64,000 bases of DNA from an uncultured Acidimicrobiales bacterium (GTDB taxonomy: Bacteria > Actinomycetota > Acidimicrobiia > Acidimicrobiales > Bin134): NCBI GenBank assembly GCA_951813325.1, contig OX638350.1, positions 62,001-126,000 of the forward strand, written 5' to 3'. How positions within the stretch are numbered: the first letter of the stretch is position 1; each line of letters opens with the position of its first letter. A program made the position numbers and the translations under genes. Of this stretch, positions 32,997 through 60,933 are shown in pieces. Below the pieces are notes generated by a model. The model was not told the origin of the DNA, did no database searches, and saw only the letters and a list, made by a program, of their open reading frames with translations.

Positions 32997-33012
32997 GCCC
33001 GGTCCCCCTGCA

Positions 33013-34209: not shown

Positions 34210-34220
34210 GATTCTCCAAT

Positions 34221-35138: not shown

Positions 35139-35164
35139 GCACCTCACAGCAGTGGCCGCCGCGC

Positions 35165-40036: not shown

Positions 40037-40038
40037 GC

Positions 40039-40071
40039 GGAACGACGTTTCTCCCAGTGGAACATTGTCCG
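40039..40071. promoter_or_regulatory. Four-half-site operator, site A
   Basis: GGAAC-GAC-GTTTC-TCCCAGT-GGAAC-ATT-GTCCG: two inverted pairs of GGAAC-like half-sites, spacing N3-N7-N3. The same architecture occurs at 43461, 49995 and 61837. An additional GTTCC follows at 40076-40080. It lies between copy 2 of the CoA transferase and the IclR gene, consistent with autoregulation. Confidence 0.7.
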
Positions 40072-40144
40072 TAGTGTTCCCCAATTTGGCGGGGTCAAGC
40101 AACCGACGACAGGGAATTATGGGTCAAAACGCCCGGATCGCGGT

Positions 40145-40966: not shown

Positions 40967-40975
40967 GGCTCTACC

Positions 40976-42601
40976 GTGAGAGACCGCGTTCGAGTGGCCG
41001 CGGTGCAGTTCGCCACCGGGACCGACCTCGACGAGAACTTGGAGACTTGCCTGCGGGTGCTGGATGCGGCCGCCGCCGAAGGGGCCGAGCTGGTGGTGAT
41101 GCCCGAGTTCTGCAACCACCTCTCCGTGTACGACGACCAAGACCACTGCCGGTCGGTAGCGGTGTCGCTGGACGGCCCCTGGTTGGGGGCCCTGGCCCGG
41201 CGATCCGCAGAGCATGGGCTTTACGCCTCGCTGACGGTGACCGTGCCCCGACACGACGACCGGGTGACGGCCACCAATGTGCTGGTCGACCCCCGAGGCC
41301 GAGTGGCCGCCACCGCCGATAAGCAGATGCTGATGGGCAATGAGCGCGCCCATCTGAGCGCGGGCACCGAGGTCAGTCCACTGCCTGACACCGCATTCGG
41401 CCCCGTGGGCCTGTACTCGTGCATGGACGGTGTGACTTTCGAGGTACCTCGCACGTTTGCCGTGAGAGGAGCTCGCCTCCTGTTGAACAGCCTCAATTCG
41501 TTCGCCCTCGACGAGGCCAGGTTGCACATACCAGTGCGGGCGGTCGAGAACGGGGTATTCGTTGTGGCCGCCAACAAGGTCGGTCCACTGCTGCCCGCGC
41601 AACAGGTGCCGCAATTCAGCCAGGCGCTGGGTGTGCCTCCTGAGGCATTGAACGGTGCCGGGGAGAGCCAGGTGGTGGACCCCGACGGCACGGTGCTGGC
41701 CATGGCACCCCGCACCGGCGAAGCGGTGGTGGTCGCCGACCTAGACCTGTCCACGGTTATGCCAGACCGGCTTCGGGGTCGCCGGCCAGAGGTGTACGGA
41801 CCTCTGGCCCAGTCCCGCACCGACCGTCCGGACTCCGGACGAGTGCCCGAGGTGGTCGCCGGCTGCGTCCCCGGTGCCCGGGCGAATCCCGAGTTGGTCC
41901 ACAAGGCCATCGACGCCGGGGCCTCCCTGGTGGTGCTGCCCGAGTTGACACCGCCGCCGCCGAACATCCCTTCTGGTGTGCTGGTGGTGACCACCGCCCT
42001 GCGGGATGGCCAGCACCTCGGCCAGGTGTGGTCGGCCGACGGCGTTGTCCACGAGCAGGCCCAGGTCCATCACAGCGACCGCCACGCCGGTGCCAAAGAG
42101 TTGAGCTCCGAAGTGGGCTTGTATCCGACGCCGTTCGGCGACCTGGCGGTGATCGTGGGGGACGATCACCTCTACCCCGAGGTTTTCCGACTGGCGGCCA
42201 TCGCCGGGGCCCATCTGGTCGCAGTGTGCTGGCATCCTGAGCACCCCTGGGAGTGCGACCTTGCGCTGATAGAACGGGCTGCGGAGAATCGGATCAGCGT
42301 GGCGGCGTGCGGACCCCCTGGACCGCTGGCCGCCACCATGCTGCTCGATCCACCCGCCGATTCGCTGTGGAACCCCAATCGGTCGAGCCCCTACGACGGG
42401 ACCATCAACACTCCGATCACCCACCGGGTTGAGCCTGACGAAGGGCTGCTGATCGGTACCCTGCATCCCGGCCGGGCAGTCAACCGCGAGATCTCCAAAG
42501 ACACCGACCTAGTGGGCGGGCGCCCCTGGAAGGCCGCGACGGCGCTTGTCGCGCCCCCGACGCAGACTACGGCCGCGGGCGATCCCGCGGCACCCGATTG
42601 A
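40976..42601 (+). CDS. Tandem nitrilase-superfamily protein, second domain degenerate
   Basis: 541 residues. Domain 1 (1-260) keeps the Glu-Lys-Cys triad: 'ELVVMPEFCN', 'ATADKQMLMG' and 'GLYSCMDGVTFEVPR'. Domain 2 (290-500) repeats the fold ('ASLVVLPELTPPP', 'FGDLAVIVGDDHLYPEVFRL') but has Asp where Cys should be and no Lys, so it is probably structural or regulatory. It cleaves a non-peptide C-N bond (amide, carbamoyl or nitrile). It starts 10 bp after the IclR gene, so the two are probably co-transcribed. It overlaps the convergent lyase gene by 35 bp. Confidence 0.85.
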   Translation: MRDRVRVAAVQFATGTDLDENLETCLRVLDAAAAEGAELVVMPEFCNHLSVYDDQDHCRSVAVSLDGPWLGALARRSAEHGLYASLTVTVPRHDDRVTATNVLVDPRGRVAATADKQMLMGNERAHLSAGTEVSPLPDTAFGPVGLYSCMDGVTFEVPRTFAVRGARLLLNSLNSFALDEARLHIPVRAVENGVFVVAANKVGPLLPAQQVPQFSQALGVPPEALNGAGESQVVDPDGTVLAMAPRTGEAVVVADLDLSTVMPDRLRGRRPEVYGPLAQSRTDRPDSGRVPEVVAGCVPGARANPELVHKAIDAGASLVVLPELTPPPPNIPSGVLVVTTALRDGQHLGQVWSADGVVHEQAQVHHSDRHAGAKELSSEVGLYPTPFGDLAVIVGDDHLYPEVFRLAAIAGAHLVAVCWHPEHPWECDLALIERAAENRISVAACGPPGPLAATMLLDPPADSLWNPNRSSPYDGTINTPITHRVEPDEGLLIGTLHPGRAVNREISKDTDLVGGRPWKAATALVAPPTQTTAAGDPAAPD

Positions 42602-43397
42602 GCACTGATCTGGCCCAGCGCATCACCGCCTCGTCGATGAACTCCCCGTCGAGCACCGCGACCGCCCGACCGTCGGCCGTCGCTTCCTCGAAGGCGGCTA
42701 CCAGCCCCTCAGCCCGGGCGATCTCTTCATCCGATGGGGTGAAGGCCGCGTTCACCGCGGCCACTTGTTTGGGGTGGATCACCGACCGGCCGCCGAAGCC
42801 GTGGCGGCGAAGCGACTCGCTGGTGGCCACCAGCCCCGCGTCGTCGTCGAGGTTGGTGAACACCGGGCCACAGGGCGCTTCGAGTCCCTCTCCTGCCGAT
42901 GCCACCACCACCCGAGTGCGTATCGGCCACATCTCCAGGGCATCGGGTGAGGGCTCCATGCCCAAGTCGGCGGCCAGATCGGCTTCGCCCAAGGCCAGGC
43001 GCACCACTTCGGGCACCGCCGCGATCTCGTATATCTGAGCCACCCCTACCGCCGACTCGATGAGCGCCATCACCGGACAGCTGCCGAAGTCGGCCGAGCA
43101 GGCCGCCGCATCGGCCTTGGGCACCACCACCCCCGCAAAGCCCACTCCGTCGGAAACCAGTGACCGCACCAGTTCGGCGTCGTGATCCACCAGGTCGGGG
43201 CGGTTGTTGATCCGCACCCATGCCGGCACACCGGGGTTGGCCCGGAGCCATTGGCCCACCGCCTCACGGGCGGTTGCCTTGGCCGCTTCGGCCACCGCAT
43301 CCTCGAGATCGCAGATGACGGCGTCGGCCCCCGACTCCAGCGCCTTGTCGAAGCGGTCGGGACGATCTCCGGGGACGTAAAGCGTGGTGCGGCTCAT
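42567..43397 (-). CDS. CitE-like CoA-ester lyase
   Basis: 276 residues from ATG 43397, with GGGAGGAG upstream. HpcH/HpaI-CitE family: 'TTLYVPGDRPDRFDKALESG', 'AVICDLEDAV', 'WVRINNRPD', 'GVVVPKADA', 'VMALIESAVGVAQIYEIA', 'LALGEADLAADLGM' and 'GFGGRSVIHPKQVAAVNAAF'. Members cleave malyl-, citramalyl- or methylmalyl-CoA-type esters. It is divergent from the RCC-reductase-like operon across operator site B. Together with the CoA transferases it could finish breakdown of a methylated C4/C5 dicarboxylate. Confidence 0.9.
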   Translation of the reverse strand: MSRTTLYVPGDRPDRFDKALESGADAVICDLEDAVAEAAKATAREAVGQWLRANPGVPAWVRINNRPDLVDHDAELVRSLVSDGVGFAGVVVPKADAAACSADFGSCPVMALIESAVGVAQIYEIAAVPEVVRLALGEADLAADLGMEPSPDALEMWPIRTRVVVASAGEGLEAPCGPVFTNLDDDAGLVATSESLRRHGFGGRSVIHPKQVAAVNAAFTPSDEEIARAEGLVAAFEEATADGRAVAVLDGEFIDEAVMRWARSVLNRVPRDRPRP

Positions 43398-43514: not shown

Positions 43515-44345
43515 ATGCGCGAGACGCTGAAGGGCGTCCAAGATATCTTTGACGAGCGGGGCCCGACAGACGCCACGGCCACGTTCAACCGGCTGTGGTC
43601 TATCACCGAAGAGCTTATGGCCAAGATCCAAGCCCGCTTCGAGTTGACCCGCGACCCCAGCACCGAAGATCTGGAGTCATACCGGGGCGAATCCGAGTAC
43701 CCCGCCGGGCGGCTGGCCGGCTATGCCGGCCCGGAAATCGACTGGCTCATCCACTCCTGGATAGGCAATCCCCCGCTGGGGTTCACCAACATGCACGTCA
43801 CCGCCTGGCTGGGCCCCCACATCGACGTGCCCCATCTGGGAATTGCGTGGGGGACGCTGCCCGATCTGTGGTTCTACATCGACTTCAACCCCCGCTCCGA
43901 TCTCATGCTCGACACCGATGCGCTCGACAAATACTGGGGCTCGCTCAACGAGGAGTTCTTGGACCTGCGGGCCGACGAAGGGCTCGCGCCGTTCACGTCC
44001 CGGGCGCTGTACGTCCGCCAGGCGCTGAGCGAGGTGGCCATCTGCTTCACCACCCCGGGCACCGTCTACGACGAGGGCCGGCTGAACCAGGTCAGCGAAC
44101 TGGCCCACCGGCGAGCAGACCAGTGGCTGGCGTGGGTGGACGAGGCTGAGCCGGTGGCGCTTGAGCACCGGGAGCAACTGGCCGCCGACGATCTGGCCCG
44201 GCGGCGTAACATCGCCGAGAGAGATCCGGCCAACATCATGGGCGTGCGCTTCTTCGGAGAGGAGATGACCGACCGTCTGGTGCGGGCCCTGTGGGGTGGC
44301 GACCGGGTATTGCCCCGACCTGCTGAGGGGGAGCTGGCATGTTAA
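43515..44345 (+). CDS. Red chlorophyll catabolite reductase-like protein
   Basis: 276 residues. Several segments align with plant RCC reductase (ACD2): 'EIDWLIHSWIGNPPLGFTNM', 'HVTAWLGPHIDVPHLGI', 'DLWFYIDFNPRSDLMLDTDA', the 'YVRQALSEVAI' strand, and near the C-terminus 'GVRFFGEEMTDRLVRAL', which matches the plant FG-x-E ending. RCCR belongs to the ferredoxin-dependent bilin reductase fold and reduces the linear tetrapyrrole made by PaO. No signal peptide. It overlaps the Rieske oxygenase start by 7 bp, so enzyme and presumed oxygenase are made together. The assignment rests on remembered family sequences. Confidence 0.72.
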   Translation: MRETLKGVQDIFDERGPTDATATFNRLWSITEELMAKIQARFELTRDPSTEDLESYRGESEYPAGRLAGYAGPEIDWLIHSWIGNPPLGFTNMHVTAWLGPHIDVPHLGIAWGTLPDLWFYIDFNPRSDLMLDTDALDKYWGSLNEEFLDLRADEGLAPFTSRALYVRQALSEVAICFTTPGTVYDEGRLNQVSELAHRRADQWLAWVDEAEPVALEHREQLAADDLARRRNIAERDPANIMGVRFFGEEMTDRLVRALWGGDRVLPRPAEGELAC

Positions 44346-45478
44346 TCAAGAACCAGTGGTACGCCGTGGAATTCGGTCAGTGGGTGTCCGACCAACCGGT
44401 GCTGGCCCGGGTCCACGGCCACGACTTGGTGCTGTGGCGCAGCCCCAACGGCACGGTCAATGCCCAGTCCGACCTGTGCGTTCACCGAGGCGGCTCATTA
44501 GCCGGCGGGTCGGTGGTGGGCGATTGCGTCCAGTGCCCCTACCACGGCTGGCGCTACGGGGCCGATGGGGCCTGTGTGGAGATACCGGCCAACCGCCCAG
44601 ACCTCCCCATTCCCAAGAAGGCCCGGATCGACACCTATCCCTGCATCGAGCGCTACGGCTTCGTGTGGGTGTTCTTGGGCGATCTGGCGCCCGAGCATCG
44701 GCCCCCGGTGCCAGAATTGGAAGGACTCGAGGAGCACATAGAGGCCAGGGCGGAGGGATACCGGGCGGTCATCGGCGAGTTCACCTGGCAGGCCAACTAC
44801 GACCGAGTGCTGGAGAACGCGGTGGACATCGCCCACACCCCATTCGTGCACTCCGGGTCGTTCGGCAACAAAGACCAGCCCGAGATCCAGGACTTCGACC
44901 TCGACGAAACCCGCGTCAACGGCCACCTGGCGTCGGTCACCGCCACCGTGGAGCTCGAACCACCCCGACCGTCAGGCCTTTGGCGGTTCATCTCCAAGAA
45001 GGACCGCCCCCCGGTGAGCACCTCCACCGGGTTCTACCCGCCCAATGTGTCGATGCTCATCGTCCGGCTGCCCATGGGCGAGATCCGCATCTTTACCGCC
45101 GCAGTGCCCCGCGACGAGCGCGTGACCGTTTCGAAGTTCTGCATGCTGCGCACGTTCTTCACCGGGGGCTGGGCCGACAAGAACTCCTACGAGCGCACCA
45201 TCAAGATCTTCTTGGAAGACCAGCCGACCGTTGAGGGCCAGCGCCCGGAGTTGCTGCCATTCGACCTGTCGGCCGAGCTCCACGTCAAGTCGGATTCCAT
45301 CCAACTGACCTACCGCCGCTGGCGCCAAGAGCAGATCGACAAGGGCTGGGGGCTCGAGACCCCCTCGGACGAGGAGGCCATGCGGGCCGCGGCGGTGATT
45401 CCCTCGCCCGGGCGCTCCAGCGACCCCGAACTGGCCAACGCCTGGGTGTTCCCCACCGTCGGCGAGGCCCGATCATGA
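44339..45478 (+). CDS. Rieske non-heme iron oxygenase, PaO/VanA-like
   Basis: 379 residues. Rieske [2Fe-2S] ligands C47-x-H49 and C66-x2-H69 ('CVHRGGSLAGG', 'CVQCPYHGWRYG'), then 'IPANRPDLPIPKKARIDTYP', a form common in cyanobacterial PaO-like oxygenases. The mononuclear iron site is seen in 'ENAVDIAHTPFVHSG' (H166, H171 with bridging Asp163). No reductase gene adjoins, so a general ferredoxin must supply electrons. Position between two bilin-reductase-fold candidates suggests macrocycle or bilin oxygenation, but aromatic demethylation cannot be excluded by sequence alone. It overlaps the next gene (ATGA). Confidence 0.85.
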   Translation: MLIKNQWYAVEFGQWVSDQPVLARVHGHDLVLWRSPNGTVNAQSDLCVHRGGSLAGGSVVGDCVQCPYHGWRYGADGACVEIPANRPDLPIPKKARIDTYPCIERYGFVWVFLGDLAPEHRPPVPELEGLEEHIEARAEGYRAVIGEFTWQANYDRVLENAVDIAHTPFVHSGSFGNKDQPEIQDFDLDETRVNGHLASVTATVELEPPRPSGLWRFISKKDRPPVSTSTGFYPPNVSMLIVRLPMGEIRIFTAAVPRDERVTVSKFCMLRTFFTGGWADKNSYERTIKIFLEDQPTVEGQRPELLPFDLSAELHVKSDSIQLTYRRWRQEQIDKGWGLETPSDEEAMRAAAVIPSPGRSSDPELANAWVFPTVGEARS

Positions 45479-46194
45479 GCCTGTCGGCTGATCTTTGCCT
45501 GGGCACAGTAGATGCCATCGCCGACCGCCTGGAGCTGGAGGAGACGGTAAACACCCCGCTGGCCTCAGCTATGGACGGCTCGCCGGTGGGCGCCCATCGG
45601 GTGCTGGCTCGCGACGGGGTAGCGACGCTGGTGTACGTGGGCATGACGGTCGAGGCGTTCGGGCTGGACAGCCACATGTGCTTCGCCTTCACGCCGGCGG
45701 CCAGCCCGGTGCCCCACTTCACCGTTGATTCGGTGCTGGCCGGACCGCACTACGCCTTCCACCTGGACTTGATCCCCCGACTCGACCCCGGCGCCAACCT
45801 GGCCTACATCGACCACTGCTACGGCCCTCTTACCGAGGTCCACGATGAGACTATGCAGATCGAAGGGCTCACCCCCGCCCACCTGTCGCCCCGCCAATGG
45901 CAGCTCATGTCAGCGTGGATGCTGGCTCACCGGGCCGACGAGAACGGTTTCCGGTCGGTGTTCGGTGCGGTGGCCGCCTACCGCGACCACTGGCTGGACC
46001 TGGTGGCCGACGGGGTGCCCCACGAGGCCATTGGCGATGCCACCGCAGAGCAGTTGGCCGATCGCGATGCCCGCAATCGAGCCGCCATCTTCAATCCCGA
46101 GGTCGACCCCGTGTGGGCCCGAGTAGACCAGCTGCTTGGCCCCGAGACGAGCGCCGCCATTCAGGCCAGTCTGAAGACCGCGGCCCGCTCCTGA
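45475..46194 (+). CDS. Second RCCR/bilin-reductase-fold candidate
   Basis: 239 residues. 'PHFTVDSVLAGPHYAFHLDL' and 'PRLDPGANLAYIDHCYGPL' resemble the central strand-loop-strand of the bilin reductase fold, and the C-terminal 'RDARNRAAIFNPEVDPVWAR' followed by LLGPETSAAI recalls the RCCR/FDBR ending. Similarity to its operon partner at 43515 is weak, so this is a distant paralogue at best. The start overlaps the Rieske stop by 4 bp. A reductase, isomerase or chaperone of the Rieske product are all possible. Confidence 0.5.
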   Translation: MSLSADLCLGTVDAIADRLELEETVNTPLASAMDGSPVGAHRVLARDGVATLVYVGMTVEAFGLDSHMCFAFTPAASPVPHFTVDSVLAGPHYAFHLDLIPRLDPGANLAYIDHCYGPLTEVHDETMQIEGLTPAHLSPRQWQLMSAWMLAHRADENGFRSVFGAVAAYRDHWLDLVADGVPHEAIGDATAEQLADRDARNRAAIFNPEVDPVWARVDQLLGPETSAAIQASLKTAARS

Positions 46195-46204
46195 GGAGAT
46201 TGAC

Positions 46205-47140
46205 ATGAGCCAAGAGTCAGAGTGGCAACAACGCATCACCGGTGAGTGGTACGGGTTGCCATCGGTGTTCGATGTCGAGGGAAACCACACTGGGTTCAAC
46301 AAGGTCAGCCGGGCCAGCGAGTTCGCCGACGGCAAGGTCACCTACTGGATGCAGTGCAACTTCATGAACACCGGCCCGCTGCGCAACCGGTTTGAGATCA
46401 AAGATTTCAAGTTCGGGGTAGATGACAGGGGCAACGACCGCATCTACCAGGGCCCCGACTTCTATGGCGCCGGCCATCCCTATGGCTCACTGGTGGACTC
46501 GCACTACTACTCGCCGGGGTGGCGGGCCGACCTGAACACCATGAATCAGATTCTGCCCGATGGGGTTACCCAGGTGTACTCGTCGCTGCTCTATGAGGGC
46601 CCCACCATCTTCTCGGTGTTCAACGGGGTGTACCTGAACGCCCACGACTACGACACCAATCCCGACACCAGGGCGTGGATCGACGCCCACATCGAGTCCG
46701 AGCGGGAGTTGGCCGCATGGCCCCACACCGTGCCCGATCGAACCGGGGGCGAATGGGCCGGTGAGTGCGAGGTGTTCGGCGCCGACCAGCAGCGCCGGGG
46801 CAGCGTGAGCGTGCGCCTGCGCCACGACCCCATCGACCTGGTGCGCACCACCCACACCCTGGAGCTCACCGGAGAGATCAACCACTCGCACACCTACATC
46901 CGCACCCGCTCCCACGGCAACCGCTACACCTACGACGGCCCCGATCTCTGGGGCAACGCCATCGCCTACGGCCGCGCCCTCTACACCTCCCAGCACCACG
47001 TCAGCGAGGCATTCAAAGTCAAAGGCCGGGAGTTCATCATCGACCGCGACTACACCCTGGCCGTGGCCTGGAAGCTCTACGACGGTGACCGCATGACCGA
47101 CATAGTCTTCGGCCCCCTGACCTTCACCCCCGACGCCTAG
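46205..47140 (+). CDS. Two-domain calycin-like protein (DUF3598-like)
   Basis: 311 residues made of two similar halves. Each opens with GEW (GEWYGLPSVFDVEGNHTG; GEWAGECEVFGADQQRRG) and has a YxGP turn (IYQGPDFYGAGHPYG; YTYDGPDLWGNAIAYG), with dense beta-strand patterning, as expected for tandem lipocalin/calycin barrels. DUF3598/CpcS-like calycins bind tetrapyrroles in cyanobacteria, which suits the context, but no catalytic residues can be named. Last gene of the RCCR-Rieske operon, with GAGG upstream. Convergent with 47137-47796. Confidence 0.6.
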   Translation: MSQESEWQQRITGEWYGLPSVFDVEGNHTGFNKVSRASEFADGKVTYWMQCNFMNTGPLRNRFEIKDFKFGVDDRGNDRIYQGPDFYGAGHPYGSLVDSHYYSPGWRADLNTMNQILPDGVTQVYSSLLYEGPTIFSVFNGVYLNAHDYDTNPDTRAWIDAHIESERELAAWPHTVPDRTGGEWAGECEVFGADQQRRGSVSVRLRHDPIDLVRTTHTLELTGEINHSHTYIRTRSHGNRYTYDGPDLWGNAIAYGRALYTSQHHVSEAFKVKGREFIIDRDYTLAVAWKLYDGDRMTDIVFGPLTFTPDA

Positions 47141-47796
47141 CCCACGGCCACTGATACTGAGCGGCTTCCATCTTCCACGTATTCGGTGAACTCGATGCTG
47201 GAGGCTCCTACCGGGTCGCGCATGGCCCAGAGGCGGCGGTGGTGCGATGGTGAGGGTTGGTCGGCGGCTACCAGCATGGGGCCTACGGCTCGGCGTAAGG
47301 GCCATTGATCGCCCGCCTTGGGTGGTGGTGCTGTCAGGTCGAGGCGGGGCTCCTCACCGGAGGATTCGGGGACAGCTACTCCCACGATGTCGGCCACCGA
47401 CCGGCCGGCCAGGGAGAAGAAACCGCCGGTGAGCTGGCGGTCGGGGGCCACTAGGACGGAGTAAGACTCGAACTCGTAGCCGAGGCGGGGCCAGAGTCCC
47501 TGGCCGGTGAGGGCGCCGGGCTGCCACAGGGTGCCGAAGCCCACAACATCGGGGCCGAGATAGCGACGTTGGGTCCCGTCCACCTCTAGCTCGAATACCC
47601 ACTCGCCCGAGAAAGCGGCCATCGGGTGACCGGCTAGTTGGGGCGATGGGTGGCACCGTTGGGTTACCAGCAGCCGGCCCTCTCCATCTGGCTCCACCAT
47701 CCGGCGTTGGGCCACCTCGCCGCGAAACGTGCCGTCTGGGTCGTAGACGTACTCGACAACCAGCCACGCACCGCCAAAGCGGTCGCTCTCGCTCAT
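47137..47796 (-). CDS. Calycin-like protein, paralogue
   Basis: 219 residues from ATG 47796, overlapping the preceding stop (ATGA). 'FGGAWLVVEYVYDPDGTFRG' and 'RRYLGPDVVGFGTLWQPG' repeat the GxW...DxxG and YxGPxxxG signatures of the 46205 protein; the second half is shorter and diverged. No signal peptide. Last gene of the four-gene minus-strand operon starting at operator site C. Function unknown; probably ligand binding or an associated enzyme of the same pathway. Confidence 0.6.
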   Translation of the reverse strand: MSESDRFGGAWLVVEYVYDPDGTFRGEVAQRRMVEPDGEGRLLVTQRCHPSPQLAGHPMAAFSGEWVFELEVDGTQRRYLGPDVVGFGTLWQPGALTGQGLWPRLGYEFESYSVLVAPDRQLTGGFFSLAGRSVADIVGVAVPESSGEEPRLDLTAPPPKAGDQWPLRRAVGPMLVAADQPSPSHHRRLWAMRDPVGASSIEFTEYVEDGSRSVSVAVG

Positions 47797-48695
47797 GCCG
47801 GATCGAAGGCCAAGGCCCCGTAGGCCGCTCCCAGGCGCTCTTCGCCCCGATACCAGATGTGGAGCACCGCCTTCATGCTGCCGTCCCGCGACACCACTTC
47901 GCGCCGCCACACTCGGAGCCCTCCTGAGAGGAGGTGGAGCTGGCCGCTGAAGCCCCGGCCGCCACTGAGGCTGCCGCTGCCCATCAGATCACCCTCCGGT
48001 GTCCACGCCGTCCAGCCGTCCGACAAAAGGGGGAACGACAGCCCCGATGAGTAGTCAGCCCCTGATAGTTCCACTTCCCAAGAGCCGTCTTTAACAGCAA
48101 CCACCTCCGCATAATCAGCTGCGCCGGCCGGTGTGCACTTGGCGTCGAGGCGGTGCAGCTGGCCCGACCAGCGGCCGGGTCGGAGCAACAAGAGCTCACC
48201 TCGGCCTGCGGTTGGGTCGTCTCGCAACACCTGGGGATCCATCTCCGCCACAGGGGGAGGCTCGGGGCCAGACGGGTCGATCTGACGCTGGTATTCCCCC
48301 ACCACCGTCCATTGGAGCCGATCGCCCCGGCTGAGCAGGGCCAGTGAGAGCTGGCGGGTGCCGTCGGGCAGCACCATCAAAAAGAACCGCTGCGAAAGTC
48401 CCAGGTCGGGCCAGTAGTTGTGGGCGGCGACCAGGCCGTCGCCCAGCGCCTCGGCATAGCCGATGTTAAGGGGCCCCTCGTAGGTGCGATGCGAGCCGTG
48501 ATCGGCAATGGTGTAGACCCCCGACAGGGAGAACGGCCCTTCGAACCCGACCTCCACCGTCACCCGTCCGGCCTGGTCATCGGCCTTCACCGATCGGGTG
48601 TCGCGCCCTAGGCCGGCAAAGCGGCCGTCGGCGTCATAGACCTCGGCCGCGCCGATCCATTCCCCAACTCCTTGGGAGAACGACCCTTTGCTCAC
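47793..48695 (-). CDS. Two-domain calycin-like protein, paralogue
   Basis: 300 residues from GTG 48695, overlapping the DUF3891 stop (GTGA). The N-terminal half has 'VGEWIGAAEVYDADGRFAGL' and 'HRTYEGPLNIGYAEALG' like the 46205 protein. The C-terminal half starts 'PGRWSGQLHRLDAKC' and is a second barrel. The family signature is shared across three genes here, indicating local expansion. No catalytic motif is recognised. Confidence 0.6.
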   Translation of the reverse strand: MSKGSFSQGVGEWIGAAEVYDADGRFAGLGRDTRSVKADDQAGRVTVEVGFEGPFSLSGVYTIADHGSHRTYEGPLNIGYAEALGDGLVAAHNYWPDLGLSQRFFLMVLPDGTRQLSLALLSRGDRLQWTVVGEYQRQIDPSGPEPPPVAEMDPQVLRDDPTAGRGELLLLRPGRWSGQLHRLDAKCTPAGAADYAEVVAVKDGSWEVELSGADYSSGLSFPLLSDGWTAWTPEGDLMGSGSLSGGRGFSGQLHLLSGGLRVWRREVVSRDGSMKAVLHIWYRGEERLGAAYGALAFDPA

Positions 48696-49510
48696 ATCCG
48701 GACCAGGCGCACTGTTTGGGTGTCCACCGGGGTGGCGGCCAGCACCGGGCCGAGGTCGGTACCGGGAGGCTGAGGAGCCAGATACCGGCCTTCGGTGGCC
48801 AGCTCAAGCCCGTCTTCGGCAAACGGGTATGGGTCCAGCCCGTAGACCCCTCCGGGACGCTCGACCACCGTGATGGTCACGTCGTCGCCTACCGCCCGTG
48901 GCACGTTGGGGAAGTCCGACTCTCCTCGCTCGTCCTCGGGAGCCAAGTGGAAGTACAGGGAGATGGTGTCGAAGAACTGGAGCTGCTTGTAGGCGTGGAA
49001 CAGGTACTCGTCGGTGGCGTGTTCGGGATCGTCGGCGGCCAACCGCTCCTTCAGCCGATGCTGGCGGTTTTCCTCGTTGCCCAGCATGGCTTCGACCTCG
49101 GGGCGCAGCTCGTCGGGGATCACGTCCAAGAAGATCTTGTCGCTCAACCCGTACCGCCCTCGATACAGGCCATAGGTGTGCATCGACGAGATAATGCCGC
49201 TGAACGGGTGATGGTCCTCATTGAACGCCGGCGATCCCGCCGATGTGGTCACAATCTGGGGCAGCGGTGTGGCGGTCAGGTTATAGGGAAGGCCGGTGTC
49301 GGGGTTCTGAGGGGCCTGGGCGTCGAGGGCGGTCCAGCCCTGGTCGTGGTGGTCGACGATGAACTGCATCGGCTCAGCTGGCTCCAACCCGTCGAACTCG
49401 TCGTTGCCGAAGTTGGCGGCCAGCGAACCGGCGAAGGCGGTGTGCTGGTGCATGGCGATCACGAAATGGGGGGCGTCGGATGCCCCGCCGGGGGCGCTCT
49501 GGACGATCAT
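48692..49510 (-). CDS. DUF3891-family protein
   Basis: 272 residues from ATG 49510 (ATGA overlap with the upstream gene). Features of DUF3891: 'IVDHHDQGWTALDAQAPQNP', 'SSMHTYGLYRGRYGLSD' and 'AYKQLQFFDTISLYFHLA', with conserved His/Asp residues that look like a buried HD-type helical metal site. Biochemical function is not known to me. Its place inside the calycin operon suggests a hydrolytic or metal-dependent step of the same pathway. Confidence 0.7.
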   Translation of the reverse strand: MIVQSAPGGASDAPHFVIAMHQHTAFAGSLAANFGNDEFDGLEPAEPMQFIVDHHDQGWTALDAQAPQNPDTGLPYNLTATPLPQIVTTSAGSPAFNEDHHPFSGIISSMHTYGLYRGRYGLSDKIFLDVIPDELRPEVEAMLGNEENRQHRLKERLAADDPEHATDEYLFHAYKQLQFFDTISLYFHLAPEDERGESDFPNVPRAVGDDVTITVVERPGGVYGLDPYPFAEDGLELATEGRYLAPQPPGTDLGPVLAATPVDTQTVRLVRM

Positions 49511-49965
49511 GGCCGCTGGACCCGGGTGAAGTCTTGAATCTGAAACAAGCTGGTGGCGCCGTCGCGCACCTTGTGGGTGATGATGCGGCGGGTGTCGGGG
49601 TCCAAGAAGTAGTGGTTGTTGTAGACGATGTTGTTGCTCACCCGGCTGTCGATGGTGAAGACGTAGTTGTACGGCGTGAGCTCGGCGCCTTCGAGGCTGA
49701 GCTGGTCGCTGGAGGCGAAGCACCGCTTGCCGTCCACCTGGATCGGGGTGTCGAAGATGGTCTCGCCCACGCCGTAGAGATTCTCAAAATGCTCATGGAG
49801 GTGCCAGGTGTTGTCGTCGAGCCAGTACACGTCCATGTGGACGGCGCTGGATTCTAGGAAATCGCCATGGAGGGTGAAGCTCTTGCACAACCCCTCCCAG
49901 TGGCCCATGAAGCACTGATACGGCCGGGGTGAGGCCGGCCCGTAGTTTCTGGTGTCGCTCACCAT
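49507..49965 (-). CDS. Single-domain calycin/DUF3598-like protein
   Basis: About 152 residues from ATG 49965 (MVSDTRNYGP). 'FMGHWEGLCKSFTLHGDFLE', 'NTWHLHEHFENLYGVGE' and 'NNHYFLDPDTRRIITHKVRD' give a single beta-barrel-like pattern. It is closest in style to cyanobacterial DUF3598 proteins. First gene of the operon; operator site C begins 30 bp upstream. The overlap with DUF3891 implies coupled translation. Confidence 0.6.
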   Translation of the reverse strand: MVSDTRNYGPASPRPYQCFMGHWEGLCKSFTLHGDFLESSAVHMDVYWLDDNTWHLHEHFENLYGVGETIFDTPIQVDGKRCFASSDQLSLEGAELTPYNYVFTIDSRVSNNIVYNNHYFLDPDTRRIITHKVRDGATSLFQIQDFTRVQRP

Positions 49966-49994
49966 CAGAATCGTAGAGTGTGCCAGTAGTGGAT

Positions 49995-50027
49995 GAAACC
50001 GTGTTCCTCTGAGCGGAACGGAGTTGT
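49995..50027. promoter_or_regulatory. Four-half-site operator, site C
   Basis: GAAAC-CGT-GTTCC-TCTGAGC-GGAAC-GGA-GTTGT, spacing N3-N7-N3 as in sites A, B and D. The central 15-mer is identical to 40152-40166. It lies between the divergent calycin operon and the chlorophyllase-like gene, ending 4 bp before the ATG of the latter. Confidence 0.75.
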
Positions 50028-50031
50028 GACA

Positions 50032-51016: not shown

Positions 51017-51823
51017 GTGACCAAGCGCATCGTCATCACCGGCAGCACCAGGGGTATCGGCAACGGGCTGGCCCGCGAGTTCCTGAAGCGCCGGTGCCAA
51101 GTGGCCGTGAGCGGTCGATCACGCGACCAAGTCGACGAGGTGGTGGCTGAGCTGGGCCAGTACTACGGCAAGTCCAAGGTGTGCGGCGCGGCCTGCGACA
51201 TCACCGACCCCGGACAGCTCCAGGGACTGTGGGACCGCGCGGCCAACGCCTTCGGCGGCGTCGACGTGTGGATCAACAATGCGGGAATCGGCATCACCCG
51301 CCAACCGCTGTGGGAACAGCACGACCACGAACTGGCTGCGCTGGTCGACACCAACCTCACCGGTGCGCTGTTGGCCAGCAAGACAGCCATTGCCAACATG
51401 GTGCGCCAAGGCCAGGGCCAGGTGTGGAACACCGAGGGATTCGGTTCCGACGGCGCCACCCAGCCCGGCATGGTGGCCTACGGGGCCACCAAACGGGCGG
51501 TGCGCTATTTGCAAAAAGCCCTGCGCAAAGACACCGCCGACACCCCCGTGCAGGTGTGCACCGTGTCGCCGGGCATTGTCGTGACCGACCTGCTCACCGG
51601 CGACTACGACCTCACATCTGAGCAATGGGAGAAGTCCAAGAAGATCTTCAACATCCTGGGCGACCACGTGCATACCGTCACCCCCTGGCTGGCCGACCAC
51701 ATCCTGGCCGCCGACAAGTCAGGGGCTCGGGTGGTGTGGCTGACCCGGCGAAAGGCCTTCGCCCGGTTCATGACCGCCTCGTTCCGGAGGCGCGATCTAT
51801 TCGCCCAGGTCGAGGGGGCGTGA
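51017..51823 (+). CDS. SDR resembling chlorophyll(ide) b reductase (NOL/NYC1)
   Basis: 268 residues with a strong AGGAGG upstream of GTG 51017. Cofactor motif GSTRGIG (9-15), NNAG (87-90), and catalytic S144, Y155, K159. Distinctive for the NOL/NYC1 branch: 'VDVWINNAGIG', 'GFGSDGATQPGMVAYGATKR', 'VSPGIVVTDLLTGDYD' and a C-terminal 'VVWLTRRKAFARFM' matching the plant 'RFLTGIKAYTKIF' region. NOL/NYC1 reduce the 7-formyl of chlorophyll b, letting the b form enter the pheophorbide a pathway. It overlaps the convergent transporter gene by 27 bp. Confidence 0.7.
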   Translation: MTKRIVITGSTRGIGNGLAREFLKRRCQVAVSGRSRDQVDEVVAELGQYYGKSKVCGAACDITDPGQLQGLWDRAANAFGGVDVWINNAGIGITRQPLWEQHDHELAALVDTNLTGALLASKTAIANMVRQGQGQVWNTEGFGSDGATQPGMVAYGATKRAVRYLQKALRKDTADTPVQVCTVSPGIVVTDLLTGDYDLTSEQWEKSKKIFNILGDHVHTVTPWLADHILAADKSGARVVWLTRRKAFARFMTASFRRRDLFAQVEGA

Positions 51824-54574
51824 ACGGGCAATAGCGTTGGGGTCGCCGCCCAGATAGCTCTGCACCACCGCGGGATCGGCTTGCACCTCGGCCGGAGTGC
51901 CCTCGGCGATCACCGCTCCCACCTCCAGGGCGATCAGGCGGTCGCACACCGAGGTCAACAGCGGCATGTCGTGCTCGATCACCACGAATGTGATGCCGTA
52001 GACCGCGCGGATTTGGGCAATCACCGCTCCCAGCGCCTCGGTCTCGGCTTGGGCGATGCCGGCTGACGGCTCGTCCATGAGCAGCAAGCGGGGGCGCAGG
52101 GCCACGTTGGCGGCCAACTCCACCAGGCGCCGGGTGCCGGTGGACAACAGGCTGACCGGCTGGTCGGCCAACCCAACCAGCCCGAACATGGCCAGCGTCT
52201 CCGACGTGTGGTCTTCCAGCTCTTGCTCAGCTCGCGAGCCGCCCACAACGAAGCCATGCTGGTGCGCCCGCTGATTGGCCAAAAAGACGATGTCGCGGGG
52301 GGTCATGGTGGGAAACAGCGGAGCGTTCTGGAACGAGCGCACCAGACCTCGTCGGCTGCGGGCCTCCGGGGGCAACCCGGTGATGTCGGCGCCTTCGAAG
52401 ATCACCGTGCCTGCTTGAGGGCGCAGATACCCGCTGATGAGCTCGAACACGGTGGTCTTGCCCGCACCGTTGGGTCCGATGAGCCCGAGTGTCTCTCCGT
52501 CGTCGACGGTGAACGACACATCGTCCACTGCCACCAGGTCGCCGAAACTCCGGGTGAGGCCTCTCACCTCCAGTACCACGCCACCCGACCTCGAGACTTG
52601 AGCGAGTGGCGTGGCCGTCACCGATGCGGCGCCAGTCTCGAATTCGCCTGCCTCGTGGTCGCCAGCCTCGTCTCGGGTTGTGACCGGATCGATGCCCCTT
52701 AGCCGGGCGATCTGGTCGATGAGGTTGCGCCGGGTGGTGGCCAGAAGGCCGTGGACACCCCGAGGCTGCTCCAGAATCAAGATCAGCCAGGCCGCATTCA
52801 AACCGGCAAGAGCCGACAGCTCGAGATCGAAGAACTCCCGGGCTCCGATCAGGTAGGCCGCGCCGATGAGGGGGCCGGTCAACTCCGAGAGACCGCCGAT
52901 GACGGCCAGCGAGACCACGTTGATGCTGTCGCTGGGGGTGAAGATGCTGCGGGTGACGAAGGTGTTGCTCATGGCCAGGATTACACCGCCCACACCGGCC
53001 ACGAAACCGGCAAAGCCATAGGCCTGGAGCAAGAGGCGCCGGGGGGCGATTTGCAGCACCCGGGCTGCGGCCTCGTTGTCGCGCACCGCCACCAGCGATC
53101 GACCAAATGAGGATCGGCGCAGCAAGTGGGCGATGGCCAGCACGCCGGTGAACACTGCCAACGCCACAAAGTAGAAGGCTCGCGAGGTGTTGAGGTCGAT
53201 TCCGAGCACGCTGGCCGGCCGCGACGACAATCCGGCACCAAATGCCCAGTCCTGGCGAAGCAGCCAGCTGAAGGTGGCCAGGGCGAAGGCCAGCGTGGCG
53301 ATGGCCAGCAGCAGGCCCCGCACCCGCAACGCGGGAAGTCCGACCGCAGCCGACACCGCCGCGCCCACCGCGCCGCCGCACAACAGCCCCAGCAGCAGGC
53401 TGCCGGTGTTGGTGGCCACCCGTACCCCGGCCACGGCGCCGATGGCGGCAAAGGCCACTTGACCCAGTGAAAGCTGGCCGGCCAGACCGGTCAGAAAGCT
53501 CACTGAGATGCCGATGGTGGCGAAGGCCACGATGGTGGACAGCACAAAGGCCGACCGGTTGCTCATCCCCAGGGGAACCAGGGCCGCGGCCACCGCGGCT
53601 GCACCGCCGACGACCCAGCCCAAGTTCCGGATCAGCCACACGTCGCGGTAGGAGTCGGGCAGCCGGCGGCTGGGGGACAAGCTGGACCAGCGCTCCGACA
53701 GCTCTCGGCCGACCCGCACTTGCATGGCCACCCCCACCAGGATGAGCAAGAACAGGGCCACCTCAAACCACCCGGTGGCTTCGGGATTGGAGGCCAGGAT
53801 CTGTTCGATCAGGCCAATGCTCAGGCCGGCAATGAGCGCCACAGGCAGGTTGGCGAAGCGGGCCAGCGCGGCGACCGCGAGGCCGCGGATGATGAAGTCG
53901 GGACCGAGGGCATCGGGGGTGACCGTCGACTGGTTCGGGATGATGAGCATGGCGGCGAAGGCTGCGATGCCCCCGGCCAGCGCCCACGACAACATGGCCA
54001 TGTGGCGGGGGTCGATCCCGGCCAAGGTGGCCGAATCGGGGTTGGCGGCCGCCCCCCGAATAGCGAGGCCGAACCGGCTCCTCTGGAGGAACAAGTAGAG
54101 CCCGCCGACCACTACCGGTGACAGGCACAACAGCGCGGTTGCCGATGGCGACACGAAAACGGTGAGGTCGAATTGGGGGAATCCCGGCGGTTGGGGGAAG
54201 CTCCCCCCGCCCAGACCCCCCTTGGAGAACGACAGCGCCAGCAGCAGCAAAGCCTCGGCTGCGCCGAGGGTGGCCACCATCGACAGCACTTTGGGAGCGG
54301 CAGCCAGCTTGCGTACCACGAAGGTCTCGATGCCGGCGGCGATCAGCGCGGCCACGATGAGCGCCCCGATAAAGCCCACCCAATAGGGCACTCCGTAGTC
54401 CTTGACCACCACGGACATCATTGATGCGGCCACCAGGCCGATGGAGCCGTGGGCGAAGTTGATAAACCCGCTGGAGCGAAAGGCCAAGACCAAGCCGATG
54501 CCCAACAGGGCGTAGCCCAAGCCGAAGATCGTTCCCAGCAGCAGAAGCGGACCGGAAATGTCGAAGGTGCCCAT
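51797..54574 (-). CDS. Liv-type ABC transporter, LivH-LivM-LivG fusion
   Basis: 925 residues in one chain. Residues 1-300 are LivH-like ('RSSGFINFAHGSIGLVAASM'). About 310-620 are LivM-like ('FLTGLAGQLSLGQVAFAAIG', 'VVSLAVIGGLSELTGPLIGA'). About 680-925 are a LivG ATPase ('GPNGAGKTT', 'RGLVRSFQNAPLFP', 'LLSTGTRRLVELAANVAL', 'LLLMDEPSAGIA', 'VIEHDMPL'). Normally these are three genes. The ATPase signature is STGTR rather than SGGQ, which may matter. Last gene of the operon from operator site D; the start overlaps the previous stop by 1 bp. Confidence 0.9.
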   Translation of the reverse strand: MGTFDISGPLLLLGTIFGLGYALLGIGLVLAFRSSGFINFAHGSIGLVAASMMSVVVKDYGVPYWVGFIGALIVAALIAAGIETFVVRKLAAAPKVLSMVATLGAAEALLLLALSFSKGGLGGGSFPQPPGFPQFDLTVFVSPSATALLCLSPVVVGGLYLFLQRSRFGLAIRGAAANPDSATLAGIDPRHMAMLSWALAGGIAAFAAMLIIPNQSTVTPDALGPDFIIRGLAVAALARFANLPVALIAGLSIGLIEQILASNPEATGWFEVALFLLILVGVAMQVRVGRELSERWSSLSPSRRLPDSYRDVWLIRNLGWVVGGAAAVAAALVPLGMSNRSAFVLSTIVAFATIGISVSFLTGLAGQLSLGQVAFAAIGAVAGVRVATNTGSLLLGLLCGGAVGAAVSAAVGLPALRVRGLLLAIATLAFALATFSWLLRQDWAFGAGLSSRPASVLGIDLNTSRAFYFVALAVFTGVLAIAHLLRRSSFGRSLVAVRDNEAAARVLQIAPRRLLLQAYGFAGFVAGVGGVILAMSNTFVTRSIFTPSDSINVVSLAVIGGLSELTGPLIGAAYLIGAREFFDLELSALAGLNAAWLILILEQPRGVHGLLATTRRNLIDQIARLRGIDPVTTRDEAGDHEAGEFETGAASVTATPLAQVSRSGGVVLEVRGLTRSFGDLVAVDDVSFTVDDGETLGLIGPNGAGKTTVFELISGYLRPQAGTVIFEGADITGLPPEARSRRGLVRSFQNAPLFPTMTPRDIVFLANQRAHQHGFVVGGSRAEQELEDHTSETLAMFGLVGLADQPVSLLSTGTRRLVELAANVALRPRLLLMDEPSAGIAQAETEALGAVIAQIRAVYGITFVVIEHDMPLLTSVCDRLIALEVGAVIAEGTPAEVQADPAVVQSYLGGDPNAIARSRPLDLGE

Positions 54575-56577
54575 CAGTGCGCCTCCGGCCCCATCACGCG
54601 CCCTTCGTCGCCGCGCAGTGCTTGGGCCAAACCCTCGAGATAGGCGGCCTGCAACAGGTCGGGTCGGGCCCGAAGCTGCTCCGCGGGACCGGAATAGCCG
54701 ATCTCGCCCTTTTCCATGACGTAGGCGTGGTCGGCGACCGACAATGCGATGTTCACCGACTGCTCCACCAGCAGCACCGCCGCGCCCTGATCAGCGATGC
54801 GGCGAACCACCGGGAGAAGGTCGGCGATCACTGTCGGAGCCAGGCCCAAAGAGAACTCGTCGATGAGCAGCAGGCGGGGAGGCATGATGATGGCCTTGGC
54901 CAAAGACAGCATCTGCTTCTCACCGCCCGACAGGGTGGCCGCCCTCTGGTTCGACCGCTCGGCCAAGCGGGGGAACAGCTCGTAGGCGTCGGCGATGCCC
55001 TGGTCGCGGCGGGATCGGTCGACCTCGTGGCCAAAGAGTCGGAGGTTGTCGGCCACGGTGAGGGGGCCGACAACGGCCTCGCCTCCCACGATCTGATGCA
55101 GTCCCATGCCGACTCGCCAGGTGGGGCGGGTCTTGGTGATGTCCAGCCCGGCGTACAGCACCCGCCCGCCGATCGTCGGCTCAAGCCCGGAGATCGCTCG
55201 CAGCAGCGTGGTCTTGCCCGCACCATTGGTGCCCAAAAGAGCCACCACTGCGCCCTCTTCCACCGCGAGGTCGACATCGAACAGCACCTGCACCGATCCA
55301 TAGGCCACCGACACCTGCTCCACCGACAGCAGGGGCGGTTGGTCGGCGAGGCCATAAACCCTGCGCGGCACGGTGATGGCCTGAGCGACGGCCACCGCGG
55401 TTTCGACGTCGCGAGCAGGGGTCGCGAACCGGCGCGTCGCCCATCCCGTGCCCATAAGCACCAACCCGAGCCACCCGATCTTCCACTGATCCGACCATTC
55501 CCCGATGACCCAGGCGTTGACCAGCGACGCGGCCAGGCCGCCCAGGCCCGCGCAAAACACTTGGCGTGCGGCTGCCGATCGGCGCACTTCGGGGGCCAGC
55601 GCCGGGAATACTGCGGCATCCAGACCGGCCGCCGCCATGGCAATGGCACCGCCCGCGGCCAACCAGCACACCACCAGGCCGATGTAGGTGAACGAGACCC
55701 CTCCCAAGAACACCAAGAGTCCGGCAACCAGCAGCTGGGTTCCGACGGCGTCAGCCCGGCGACTGCCGGTGAGCCGGTGCAGCCGGTGGTACCACGGACC
55801 GAATAGGCTCATAAGCGCGGCCCCTCCGGCCCCTGCGGCCAGCACCGCGGCGTTCTGGGCGGCACTGCGCTGCCACTCTCCCAGCAGAAGCGACTGGGCG
55901 GCGTCGGCGCCGCCGATCACCACTGCGCCGACCGCGAAGGCAGCACCGTACGACCGGCGGGCCCAGGGAACGTCGGTGCGGGCGACGGTCACCTCTACCT
56001 CGTGGTCCTCGTCGTGGACCAATGCGTGACGCCCAACCACAACGGCTCCGACCAGCATGAGCGCTGCGCTGGCCCACAGCACCGTTTCGTAGGCCACCGG
56101 GGTGAAGATGCGGACCAAAAGAGGCCACGACGCGCCGACGGCCACCGCGGCCCAGTACCACGACAGCGTGCGGAATCGGTCGGCGGGACGAGTATCGGTG
56201 GCCAGCAGCAATCGGTGGGTTCCCATACCAGGGGCCGCGCCGAGCGCCAGCAGTACTCCGCCGACGGTGAACAGGGCCAACTCGACTGTCCAGGCCATCA
56301 GTCCCAGACCGATCGCGGCCACCAACCCCCCGAGCAGCAGCGTTATGCCCGCAGGCAGCTTATTGCGCAGCCGGGGAACGGCCAGCACGGCCACCACGGC
56401 GACTGCGCCCAGCAGCGCGGTCTCGCCGGTGATCGCCCCCAGCCGGTTGAGTCGCTCGGCGATCTCCTGTCGCTGGAACAGCAGCACCGGCAGCGGCGAA
56501 GCCAAAGCCGCTCCCTGCCAGGAGGCGGCAGCCAAGAACCTAGGGTTGCCTGGGCGCCCCTCAGGCTCGTTGTGCAT
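54574..56577 (-). CDS. MFS-like membrane domain fused to LivF ATPase
   Basis: 667 residues. About 1-400 hold roughly ten to twelve hydrophobic segments with an MFS-like pattern ('GITLLLGGLVAAIGLGLMAW', 'AAPGMGTHRLLLATDTRPAD', 'RFRTLSWYWAAVAVGASWPL'). About 415-667 are a LivF ATPase ('LLGTNGAGKTTLLRAISGLE', 'LHQIVGGEAVVGPLTV', 'TLSGGEKQMLSLAKAI', 'LLLIDEFSLGLAP', 'LLVEQSVNIALSVADHAYVM'). The MFS half has no separate known role in Liv systems. 10 bp after the binding-protein stop. Confidence 0.85.
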   Translation of the reverse strand: MHNEPEGRPGNPRFLAAASWQGAALASPLPVLLFQRQEIAERLNRLGAITGETALLGAVAVVAVLAVPRLRNKLPAGITLLLGGLVAAIGLGLMAWTVELALFTVGGVLLALGAAPGMGTHRLLLATDTRPADRFRTLSWYWAAVAVGASWPLLVRIFTPVAYETVLWASAALMLVGAVVVGRHALVHDEDHEVEVTVARTDVPWARRSYGAAFAVGAVVIGGADAAQSLLLGEWQRSAAQNAAVLAAGAGGAALMSLFGPWYHRLHRLTGSRRADAVGTQLLVAGLLVFLGGVSFTYIGLVVCWLAAGGAIAMAAAGLDAAVFPALAPEVRRSAAARQVFCAGLGGLAASLVNAWVIGEWSDQWKIGWLGLVLMGTGWATRRFATPARDVETAVAVAQAITVPRRVYGLADQPPLLSVEQVSVAYGSVQVLFDVDLAVEEGAVVALLGTNGAGKTTLLRAISGLEPTIGGRVLYAGLDITKTRPTWRVGMGLHQIVGGEAVVGPLTVADNLRLFGHEVDRSRRDQGIADAYELFPRLAERSNQRAATLSGGEKQMLSLAKAIIMPPRLLLIDEFSLGLAPTVIADLLPVVRRIADQGAAVLLVEQSVNIALSVADHAYVMEKGEIGYSGPAEQLRARPDLLQAAYLEGLAQALRGDEGRVMGPEAH

Positions 56578-56586
56578 GGCGGCCGA

Positions 56587-58035
56587 TCACTCGTCGAAGT
56601 TAGCCGCTTCGCCAGTGATCGCCATGCACTGGCAATCGGTGTCGAACCGGAAGGCCCGATACATTTCTCCGCCGGCAAAGCTGCCCTCGCTGAACTCGAC
56701 TCCGTAGACCGATGCGGGCTGGAAACTGTCGGCCAACTGCCACATCGCCTCGCTGACCCCCTGAGCGCTTACCTCGGCCATGTGCGGACCAGCAGCAGTC
56801 AGCAGGCGGAGCACGTCGCAGAACATGAGCCCGGTGCGGATGTTGGCCCGCTCGGTGAACTCCTGCCCCGCGGCAGCGAAGATGTCGACACACTCCTGTT
56901 CAGCCGGAGTTGCGGGGAAGGAGTACTGGGCGTCTTCGACGTCGTAGCCGGGCAGAACGCTTATGCCGCTGGCGTCGGTCATCATCTCGGGGTAGTTGAA
57001 CACGTTGAACTCGGGAGCGTCGTAGCTGGTCACGGCATAGGCAGGCGCGAAGTTCTGGGTAATGCTGGTGTCGATGAACCACGACACCAATCGAGAGCCG
57101 CCGATGGCCACCACCTTGTCCACACCCGCCTCTTTGAAGTTGATGATGGCCTGAAGCTGGTCGTTGTTGAACGATGTGCCGTCGGTGGGGTCGATGGTGT
57201 TGTACGAGGCCACCTCCACCCCGGCGGCGGTGAGCCGGGGGGCGAACTGCTCGTCGTAAACCCGCTGGCTCAGCTCGGAGTCGATGGCGATGATCCCCAA
57301 GGTGGCCCCGTCGAACCATCCCTCTTGGATGAGCGCCTCGGCCAGGCCGCCCACCAGGTCGTCGTAGGAGGGAAGCAGCGGCGACCAGTAGTACGGGGCC
57401 AAATCGGCGAATCCCGCGTTGTCCACGGGATACAGCGTGGCGTCGAACATGAGGGTATTGGCGTTGCGATAACAGGGTCGGGCGTTCTCCTGGAGCTGCC
57501 CGGTCATCACCACCGCAAATGCCTTGTCGTCTTGGGTGATGGCGTTGCACAGCGCCTCTTCGGCCACCGGACCGTCGGTGATGGCGTTGAACACCGTGAC
57601 CTTGGCTTCGATCTGGCGACCCGCGATTCCACCCTGGGCGTTGAAATGATCCACGAGTGCGGCAACTTGCGCCTCGCGGTCGCCTTCGTCCGGGGTCTCC
57701 CACCCGAACGCCGCGGCAACCGCGGAGGTGTCGGTGATGATGAACGAGATGGTGATGGTGTCGTCGGTGACGCCGGGGGTGTCCGGGCCCACAGGCACCA
57801 AGCCACGGGGGGCTTCAGTGCCAACAGGAATCTCAGTCGGCTCGCCATCGGGGCCATCGGGCTCTGTGACGGACGACACCGGTTCGGCGGTCGCCGCCGC
57901 GGTGGCAGCGGGTGCCGCCGGCTCCTCGTCATCGGCGGCCTGCGAGCAAGCCGCTGCGACCAGTACCGCGATCAACAGCAGTCCAAACGTCCGGAGCCGC
58001 ACGGAACGAGAGCGGCGGTTGGCGGTCATATTCAT
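56587..58035 (-). CDS. Liv-type substrate-binding lipoprotein of the regulon
   Basis: 482 residues from ATG 58035 (GAGGTG upstream). Signal peptide with lipobox VAAAC near residue 29, Ala/Glu/Pro linker, then a type-1 binding domain: 'GPDTPGVTDDTITISFIITD', 'GGIAGRQIEAKVTVFNAITD', 'LAPYYWSPLLPSYDDLVGGL'. It is clearly different from the binding protein at 12058, so a different ligand is expected. It serves the fused permease/ATPase genes downstream and lies in the operon of operator site D. Confidence 0.88.
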   Translation of the reverse strand: MNMTANRRSRSVRLRTFGLLLIAVLVAAACSQAADDEEPAAPAATAAATAEPVSSVTEPDGPDGEPTEIPVGTEAPRGLVPVGPDTPGVTDDTITISFIITDTSAVAAAFGWETPDEGDREAQVAALVDHFNAQGGIAGRQIEAKVTVFNAITDGPVAEEALCNAITQDDKAFAVVMTGQLQENARPCYRNANTLMFDATLYPVDNAGFADLAPYYWSPLLPSYDDLVGGLAEALIQEGWFDGATLGIIAIDSELSQRVYDEQFAPRLTAAGVEVASYNTIDPTDGTSFNNDQLQAIINFKEAGVDKVVAIGGSRLVSWFIDTSITQNFAPAYAVTSYDAPEFNVFNYPEMMTDASGISVLPGYDVEDAQYSFPATPAEQECVDIFAAAGQEFTERANIRTGLMFCDVLRLLTAAGPHMAEVSAQGVSEAMWQLADSFQPASVYGVEFSEGSFAGGEMYRAFRFDTDCQCMAITGEAANFDE

Positions 58036-58048
58036 GGGGCACACCTCG

Positions 58049-60932: not shown

Positions 60933-60933
60933 A

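Follow-up and report, generated by a model that had tools for sequence, protein, structure and literature searches.

The window analysed here is a stretch of 64,000 nucleotides corresponding to positions 62001-126000 of a single 3.59 Mb contig (G000:C1). Its closest relatives among public genomes were MAGs of Acidimicrobiia / Acidimicrobiales, the marine group Sva0996 among them, and several isolate names within this set presumably indicate a sponge origin. Two adjacent operons on opposite strands, including genes designated P1 to P4 and P8, were delineated as follows:

43515..44345, plus strand: red chlorophyll catabolite reductase (RCCR) homologue (PF06405, E 2.4e-13)
44339..45478, plus strand: Rieske non-heme iron oxygenase with VanA-type C-terminal domain (PF00355, 3e-20; PF19112, 2.5e-26)
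45475..46194, plus strand: P8, second RCC-reductase-type protein (hhalign to the RCCR homologue)
46205..47140, plus strand: P1, two-domain calycin protein of 311 aa (AF2 model, fold matches over both barrels, orthologues)
46205-46645, plus strand: P1 predicted barrel 1, residues 1-147 (AF2 model)
46661-46711, plus strand: P1 predicted linker helix, residues 153-169 (AF2 model)
46718-47137, plus strand: P1 predicted barrel 2, residues 172-311 (AF2 model)
47137..47796, minus strand: P2, family member of 219 aa with one barrel and a shorter C-terminal part (homology to P3)
47793..48695, minus strand: P3, two-domain P1 paralogue of 300 aa (homology to P1 over 288 columns)
48692..49510, minus strand: DUF3891 protein (PF13030, E 1.7e-31; 4-bp overlaps; same operon as P2, P3 and P4)
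49507..49965, minus strand: P4, 152 aa, with GxW...G at its start (conservation seen across 10 aligned loci)

The plus-strand operon runs in the order RCCR homologue, Rieske oxygenase, P8 and P1, with P1 last, and its genes overlap or nearly abut (44339/44345, 45475/45478 and 46194/46205). P1 and P2 are convergent and meet at their stop codons. On the minus strand, the order is P4, DUF3891, P3 and P2, with a 4-bp overlap at every junction. The P2 reading frame opens at 47910 and its probable start is the ATG at 47796, which overlaps the P3 stop (ATGA), while P4 probably starts near 49965. The DUF3891 gene sits between P3 and P4 and was absent from the first-pass annotation; its product was found conserved together with the P4-P3-P2 operon.

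P1, P2 and P3 had previously been regarded as one family with common motifs, which the present comparisons bear out. Motif YxGPxxxG occurred four times among the 57 GC3-picked genes of the window, against 0.235 occurrences expected from residue shuffles. P1 has two of these copies (residues 81 and 243), while P2 and P3 have one apiece. P1 and P3 were related both by BLASTP (2e-12) and by profile comparison (1.8e-13 over 288 columns), as were P2 and P3 (4e-11 and 6.6e-7, respectively). Both halves of P1 carry the family signature, as had been proposed, and aligned with each other by hhalign with a score of 31.0 (E 1.7e-4), the best of 60 column shuffles reaching 22.8; judged from these alignments, they form a genuine internal repeat. 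The second half of P3 displayed no YxGP. A GEW start had been attributed to the whole family, but P2 reads GAW and only the general form GxW...G holds for P1, P2 and P3; across the 57 genes, GxW-x10-G was present in these three, in P4 and in one unrelated ORF. Residues invariant in 42 P1/P2/P3 sequences included G13, W15, G26, G30, R36, R79, Y81, G83, P84, G88, P104, Q123 and G141, and P1 orthologues displayed 51-95 % identity. Pfam and NCBIfam searches gave no match for P1, P2 or P3, and the profile search proposed in the first-pass annotation for defining the family left all three outside every curated family. As one part of the best explanation for the locus, we tentatively consider them a new calycin-barrel family with P1 as its core member, a proposal that falls just short of an even chance.

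P4 had been considered a related single barrel, and this relation was not recovered: hhalign against the P1 and P3 profiles detected none (probability 1-3 %), YxGPxxxG is lacking, and the GxW...G start is the sole feature in common with P1. DUF3598_N was weakly matched by only one of ten members (E 0.081). Membership of P4 in the P1 family was consequently rejected.

Calycin barrels had also been predicted for these proteins. The folding alignment for P1 comprised 42 P1, P3 and P2 sequences and left out P1 orthologues found solely by genome-collection search. AlphaFold2 on 12 P1 orthologues alone yielded a pLDDT of 46.6, and addition of the P3 and P2 rows led to a confident model (mean pLDDT 88.5, pTM 0.87), in which helix 153-169 connects two barrels, each of about ten strands. 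Top Foldseek ranks were occupied by BFA1 (5yvf, E 1.6e-10) and a DUF3598 protein (2o62, E 5.5e-9). VIA-align superposed P1 on 2o62 over 245 residues (Z 19.8, rmsd 3.8) and on 5yvf over 266 residues (Z 19.6, rmsd 4.0); the next matches each covered one P1 barrel (nitrobindin, Z 13.3; Rv2717c, 12.7; Ycf58, 11.3; CpeS (4tq2), 11.1; FABPs, ~9). The model and its matches over both barrels support the predicted calycin superfamily fold (an up-and-down beta barrel of 8-10 strands) for P1, and the profile relationships given above extend this support, by homology, to P3 and to barrel 1 of P2. Searches of PDB profiles with P1, P4, P8 and a combined alignment returned chance matches only, and a viral fold library gave no useful match. 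For P1 to P4, no Pfam family was matched at E up to 5, the CpcS/CpeS lyases included.

As modelled, P1 has the tandem-barrel architecture of DUF3598 and BFA1. An independent, weak DUF3598_N sequence signal in one P1 member (E 0.019) agrees with this fold. By sequence, however, P1 is no recognised DUF3598 member: a PF12204 search of 17 carrier genomes stayed empty at E up to 0.05, the Synechococcus control being positive. DUF3598 (PF12204; 2o62, from Nostoc punctiforme) thus consists, like P1, of two calycin barrels in tandem but differs in gene setting, and its curated sequence cut-off was not reached in these 17 genomes. Nitrobindin/THAP4 and the CpcS/CpeS phycobilin lyases, which bind heme or bilins, resemble one P1 barrel, but they are single barrels and display no detectable sequence relation to P1. 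BFA1, a biogenesis factor of chloroplast ATP synthase, has the same tandem barrel fold but is a plant assembly factor, whereas P1 belongs to an operon of catabolic type and most relatives lack it. P1 could in principle be an assembly factor of this kind for the Rieske or reductase proteins, binding protein rather than pigment, as 5yvf ranks among the top two fold matches and P1 is strictly linked to the same enzymes. This seems improbable: identity to BFA1 was only ~10 % in the fold alignment, and P1 was absent from 51 of 60 relatives, so it serves no general complex. A BFA1-like ATP-synthase factor, as main reading, was discarded in view of the sporadic distribution and the operon.

Among the operon partners, the RCCR homologue clears the PF06405 cut-off (50.3 bits vs 24.9) and matches Arabidopsis RCCR (3agb) at E 3.7e-11. 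In its alignment, D237 is invariant and occupies the position of plant Asp291, while the Glu154 position falls in a gap; we take Glu154 and Asp291, so numbered, to be the active-site acids of plant RCCR. P8 had no Pfam match. Its alignment with the RCCR homologue (hhalign E 5.2e-9, probability 96 %), in which the DPVW motif of P8 faces DPAN, assigns it by profile to the RCCR/FDBR superfamily. Metal-ligand motifs CxH...CxxH and D-x2-H-x4-H of the Rieske protein were intact in 26 out of 26 orthologues; its Pfam matches were limited to Rieske, VanA_C and a weak KshA_C, with no PaO domain (PF08417). Genome G907 also harbored another RCC reductase homologue, divergent at 32 % identity (L088:8827-9627), located outside the operon with no other cluster genes nearby.

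RCCR and P8 lie within the bilin-reductase superfamily, the phycobilin lyase CpeS is among the single-barrel fold matches and importer genes are found nearby. The cluster might accordingly act on imported heme- or phycobilin-derived bilins (cyanobacterial ones, for example), with P1 as bilin carrier and a Rieske enzyme that modifies the ring rather than opening it. We regard this as unlikely, as the RCCR homologue is a clear match to PF06405 but scores below cut-off for bilin-reductase family PF05996, and no canonical heme oxygenase was detected in the 17 carriers examined (the control was positive in three genomes). A bilin stemming from the cell's own canonical heme oxygenase is likewise unlikely. 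The lack of this enzyme in the carriers points to the Rieske protein as the probable ring opener, which would parallel the situation in plants, where pheophorbide a oxygenase acts before RCCR.

Clustering around tetrapyrrole-type enzymes, as initially noted, turned out to be stronger than described: linkage of RCCR homologue, Rieske oxygenase, P8 and P1 was kept across seven families of Acidimicrobiia. P1 was found beside these partners at 20 loci in other genomes, some of them cut by contig ends, and all complete loci had it directly after RCCR, Rieske and P8. The distant genomes G040, G126, G771, G907, G933 and G959 retained the set at 47-73 % identity; in G333 it was split over contig ends. 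Of 296 genomes examined in the class, four encoded P1, and it was these four that also encoded RCCR. Were the genomes independent, the chance of this would be ~3e-9, but genomes within one sample are related and the count makes them look more independent than they are. Within the order, 17 of 397 genomes carried RCCR and all 17 carried P1. P1 is strictly linked to RCCR within Acidimicrobiia. A phylum-wide draw uncovered P1 in three out of 396 genomes, all from the order of the window, and other phyla were covered by one pattern scan for close P1 relatives. Plasmid records contained no relative of P1 or RCCR, and viral contigs none of P1. Within the genus of the window the cluster was sporadic (7 of 22), a pattern suggesting that its genes are gained or lost together. 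P2, P3, DUF3891 and P4 were present in four of the seven families. In other lineages, among more distant carriers, P1 is directly followed by a conserved protein of ~230-290 aa, weakly glyoxalase-superfamily-like (L039:8715-9596, L046:10323-11009, L047:1047-1814). One relative (L003:8930-15417) has P1 ~6.5 kb away from P2 and P3 in an otherwise intact arrangement.

P1 was about as conserved as the operon enzymes, which may favour catalysis over carriage. It could itself be a pathway enzyme, such as an isomerase, hydrolase or cleaving enzyme acting on an open-chain tetrapyrrole; P3 and P2 would then be paralogues serving related steps. Its place in the operon is conserved to the same degree as that of the enzymes, and its many invariant charged and aromatic residues include R79, Y81, D85, W106, D109, K271, R275 and E276. 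Calycin-barrel enzymes are already known, namely phycobilin lyases and dinoflagellate luciferase, which acts on a chlorophyll-derived tetrapyrrole. No cofactor or known catalytic motif was seen in P1, however, and its sequence matched no enzyme family, which leaves an enzymatic P1 somewhat unlikely.

The preferred reading, to which we give slightly less than half of our confidence, is that P1 is a component dedicated to a bacterial pathway for tetrapyrrole ring opening and reduction, as putative carrier of the open-chain product. The Rieske enzyme would open a chlorin- or porphyrin-type ring, and the labile open-chain product would be held in the P1 barrels and passed on to both reductase-type proteins, the RCCR homologue and P8. 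The order of the fold matches, tandem barrels followed by heme-, bilin- and fatty-acid-type calycins, counts in favour of such a role; the missing PaO domain of the Rieske protein and the lack of a counterpart to plant RCCR Glu154 count against it. Putative binding and hand-over by P1 was judged most likely and P1 as an enzyme next, on evidence that does not separate them.

The fate of the reduced products may be indicated by the genes on either side of the two operons:

32364-32996: isochorismatase-type amidase
33013-34209: class III CoA-transferase
34221-35138: HMG-CoA lyase-type protein
35165..36676, minus strand: allantoinase/hydantoinase-type amidohydrolase, possible cyclic imide hydrolase (TIGR03178, 6.3e-64; TIGR02033, 2.1e-57; both below cut-off)
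36622..38028, minus strand: MmgE/PrpD-type hydratase or dehydratase (PF03972, PF19305)
38025-38849, minus strand: PF04199 cyclase/hydrolase (conserved beside the operon in relatives)
38846-40102, minus strand: second class III CoA-transferase (conserved beside the operon in relatives)
40976..42601, plus strand: carbon-nitrogen hydrolase of amidase or nitrilase type (PF00795)
42567..43397, minus strand: HpcH/HpaI lyase most similar to RipC, a citramalyl-CoA lyase; start probably near 43397 (PF03328; NF038242, 3.4e-48, below cut-off)
49993-50991, plus strand: alpha/beta-hydrolase-like protein (conserved neighbour)
51017-51823, plus strand: short-chain dehydrogenase (conserved neighbour)
51797..58044, minus strand: branched-chain-amino-acid-type ABC importer with permease-ATPase fusion, second ATPase fusion and binding protein (conserved neighbours)

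Only the HMG-CoA lyase subfamily reached its NCBIfam cut-off among these assignments. Judged by family names, the set would fit alkyl-maleimide breakdown. Products of the reductases would later be cut to alkyl-maleimides and mineralised by the flanking imidase, amidase, hydratase, CoA-transferase and lyase, with hydantoinase-type, isochorismatase-type, MmgE/PrpD, class III CoA-transferases, RipC-like lyase and HMG-CoA lyase proteins acting in that order. The putative course is alkyl-maleimide to maleamate, maleate, malate, a CoA ester of malate and finally a keto acid plus acyl-CoA. Chlorophyll breakdown is documented to yield maleimides and hematinic acid, alkyl-maleimides being known oxidation products (PMC7318184), and the fit of the flanking genes to such maleimides lends support to the pathway. 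The ABC importer is a possible uptake system; its fused proteins (51797-56577) are a 925-aa protein with permeases and ATPase and a 667-aa protein with the ATPase in its C-terminal part. Within 32364-43397, the genes for the hydantoinase-type, isochorismatase-type, MmgE/PrpD, HMG-CoA-lyase-type and RipC-like proteins and for both class III CoA-transferases recur beside the operon in distant relatives.

Comparable gene sets are known from plants and from other heterotrophs. As in the plant PAO/phyllobilin pathway (pheophorbide a oxygenase and RCC reductase), a Rieske oxygenase gene here adjoins an RCCR homologue, but the Rieske protein is VanA-type without PaO domain, an additional RCCR-like protein and calycins are present, and the system is bacterial and operonic. 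The pre-PcyA bilin clusters of heterotrophic bacteria likewise bring enzymes of the bilin-reductase superfamily into non-photosynthetic bacteria and include tetrapyrrole-binding proteins; they carry heme oxygenase, globins (BBAG) and V4R proteins (PMC10151467). The present cluster differs by its Rieske enzyme and calycins and by the lack of a canonical heme oxygenase in the genome. The open literature searched gave no description of an operon combining Rieske, RCCR, RCCR-like and tandem-calycin genes. To our knowledge, bacterial genes breaking the chlorophyll macrocycle and its pyrrole pieces are largely undescribed. Chlorophyll is made and degraded at ~10^12 kg a year (PMC7318184). The constant association of the P1 family with relatives of a plant enzyme of chlorophyll breakdown points to a bacterial route, as yet undescribed, by which such pigments would be dismantled. 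With a conserved operon pairing a Rieske oxygenase, RCC-reductase-type enzymes and a calycin, bacterial chlorophyll breakdown can be tested directly, and DUF3598-like tandem barrels outside BFA1 would gain an initial functional clue. The whole 25-30 kb region might even encode an undescribed aerobic route in heterotrophic marine Acidimicrobiia, by which chlorophyll-type tetrapyrroles would be opened, reduced and, by way of alkyl-maleimides, mineralised into central metabolites. P1 would then be an essential new component, either chaperone or enzyme; we consider this extension doubtful.

A bacterial serpin is encoded upstream of the cluster (29427-31013, PF00079, E 8.7e-71). On the other side, 59655-60989 encodes an SBBP beta-propeller protein; G040, G126 and G907 have relatives of it (34-36 % identity) close to their RCCR operons.
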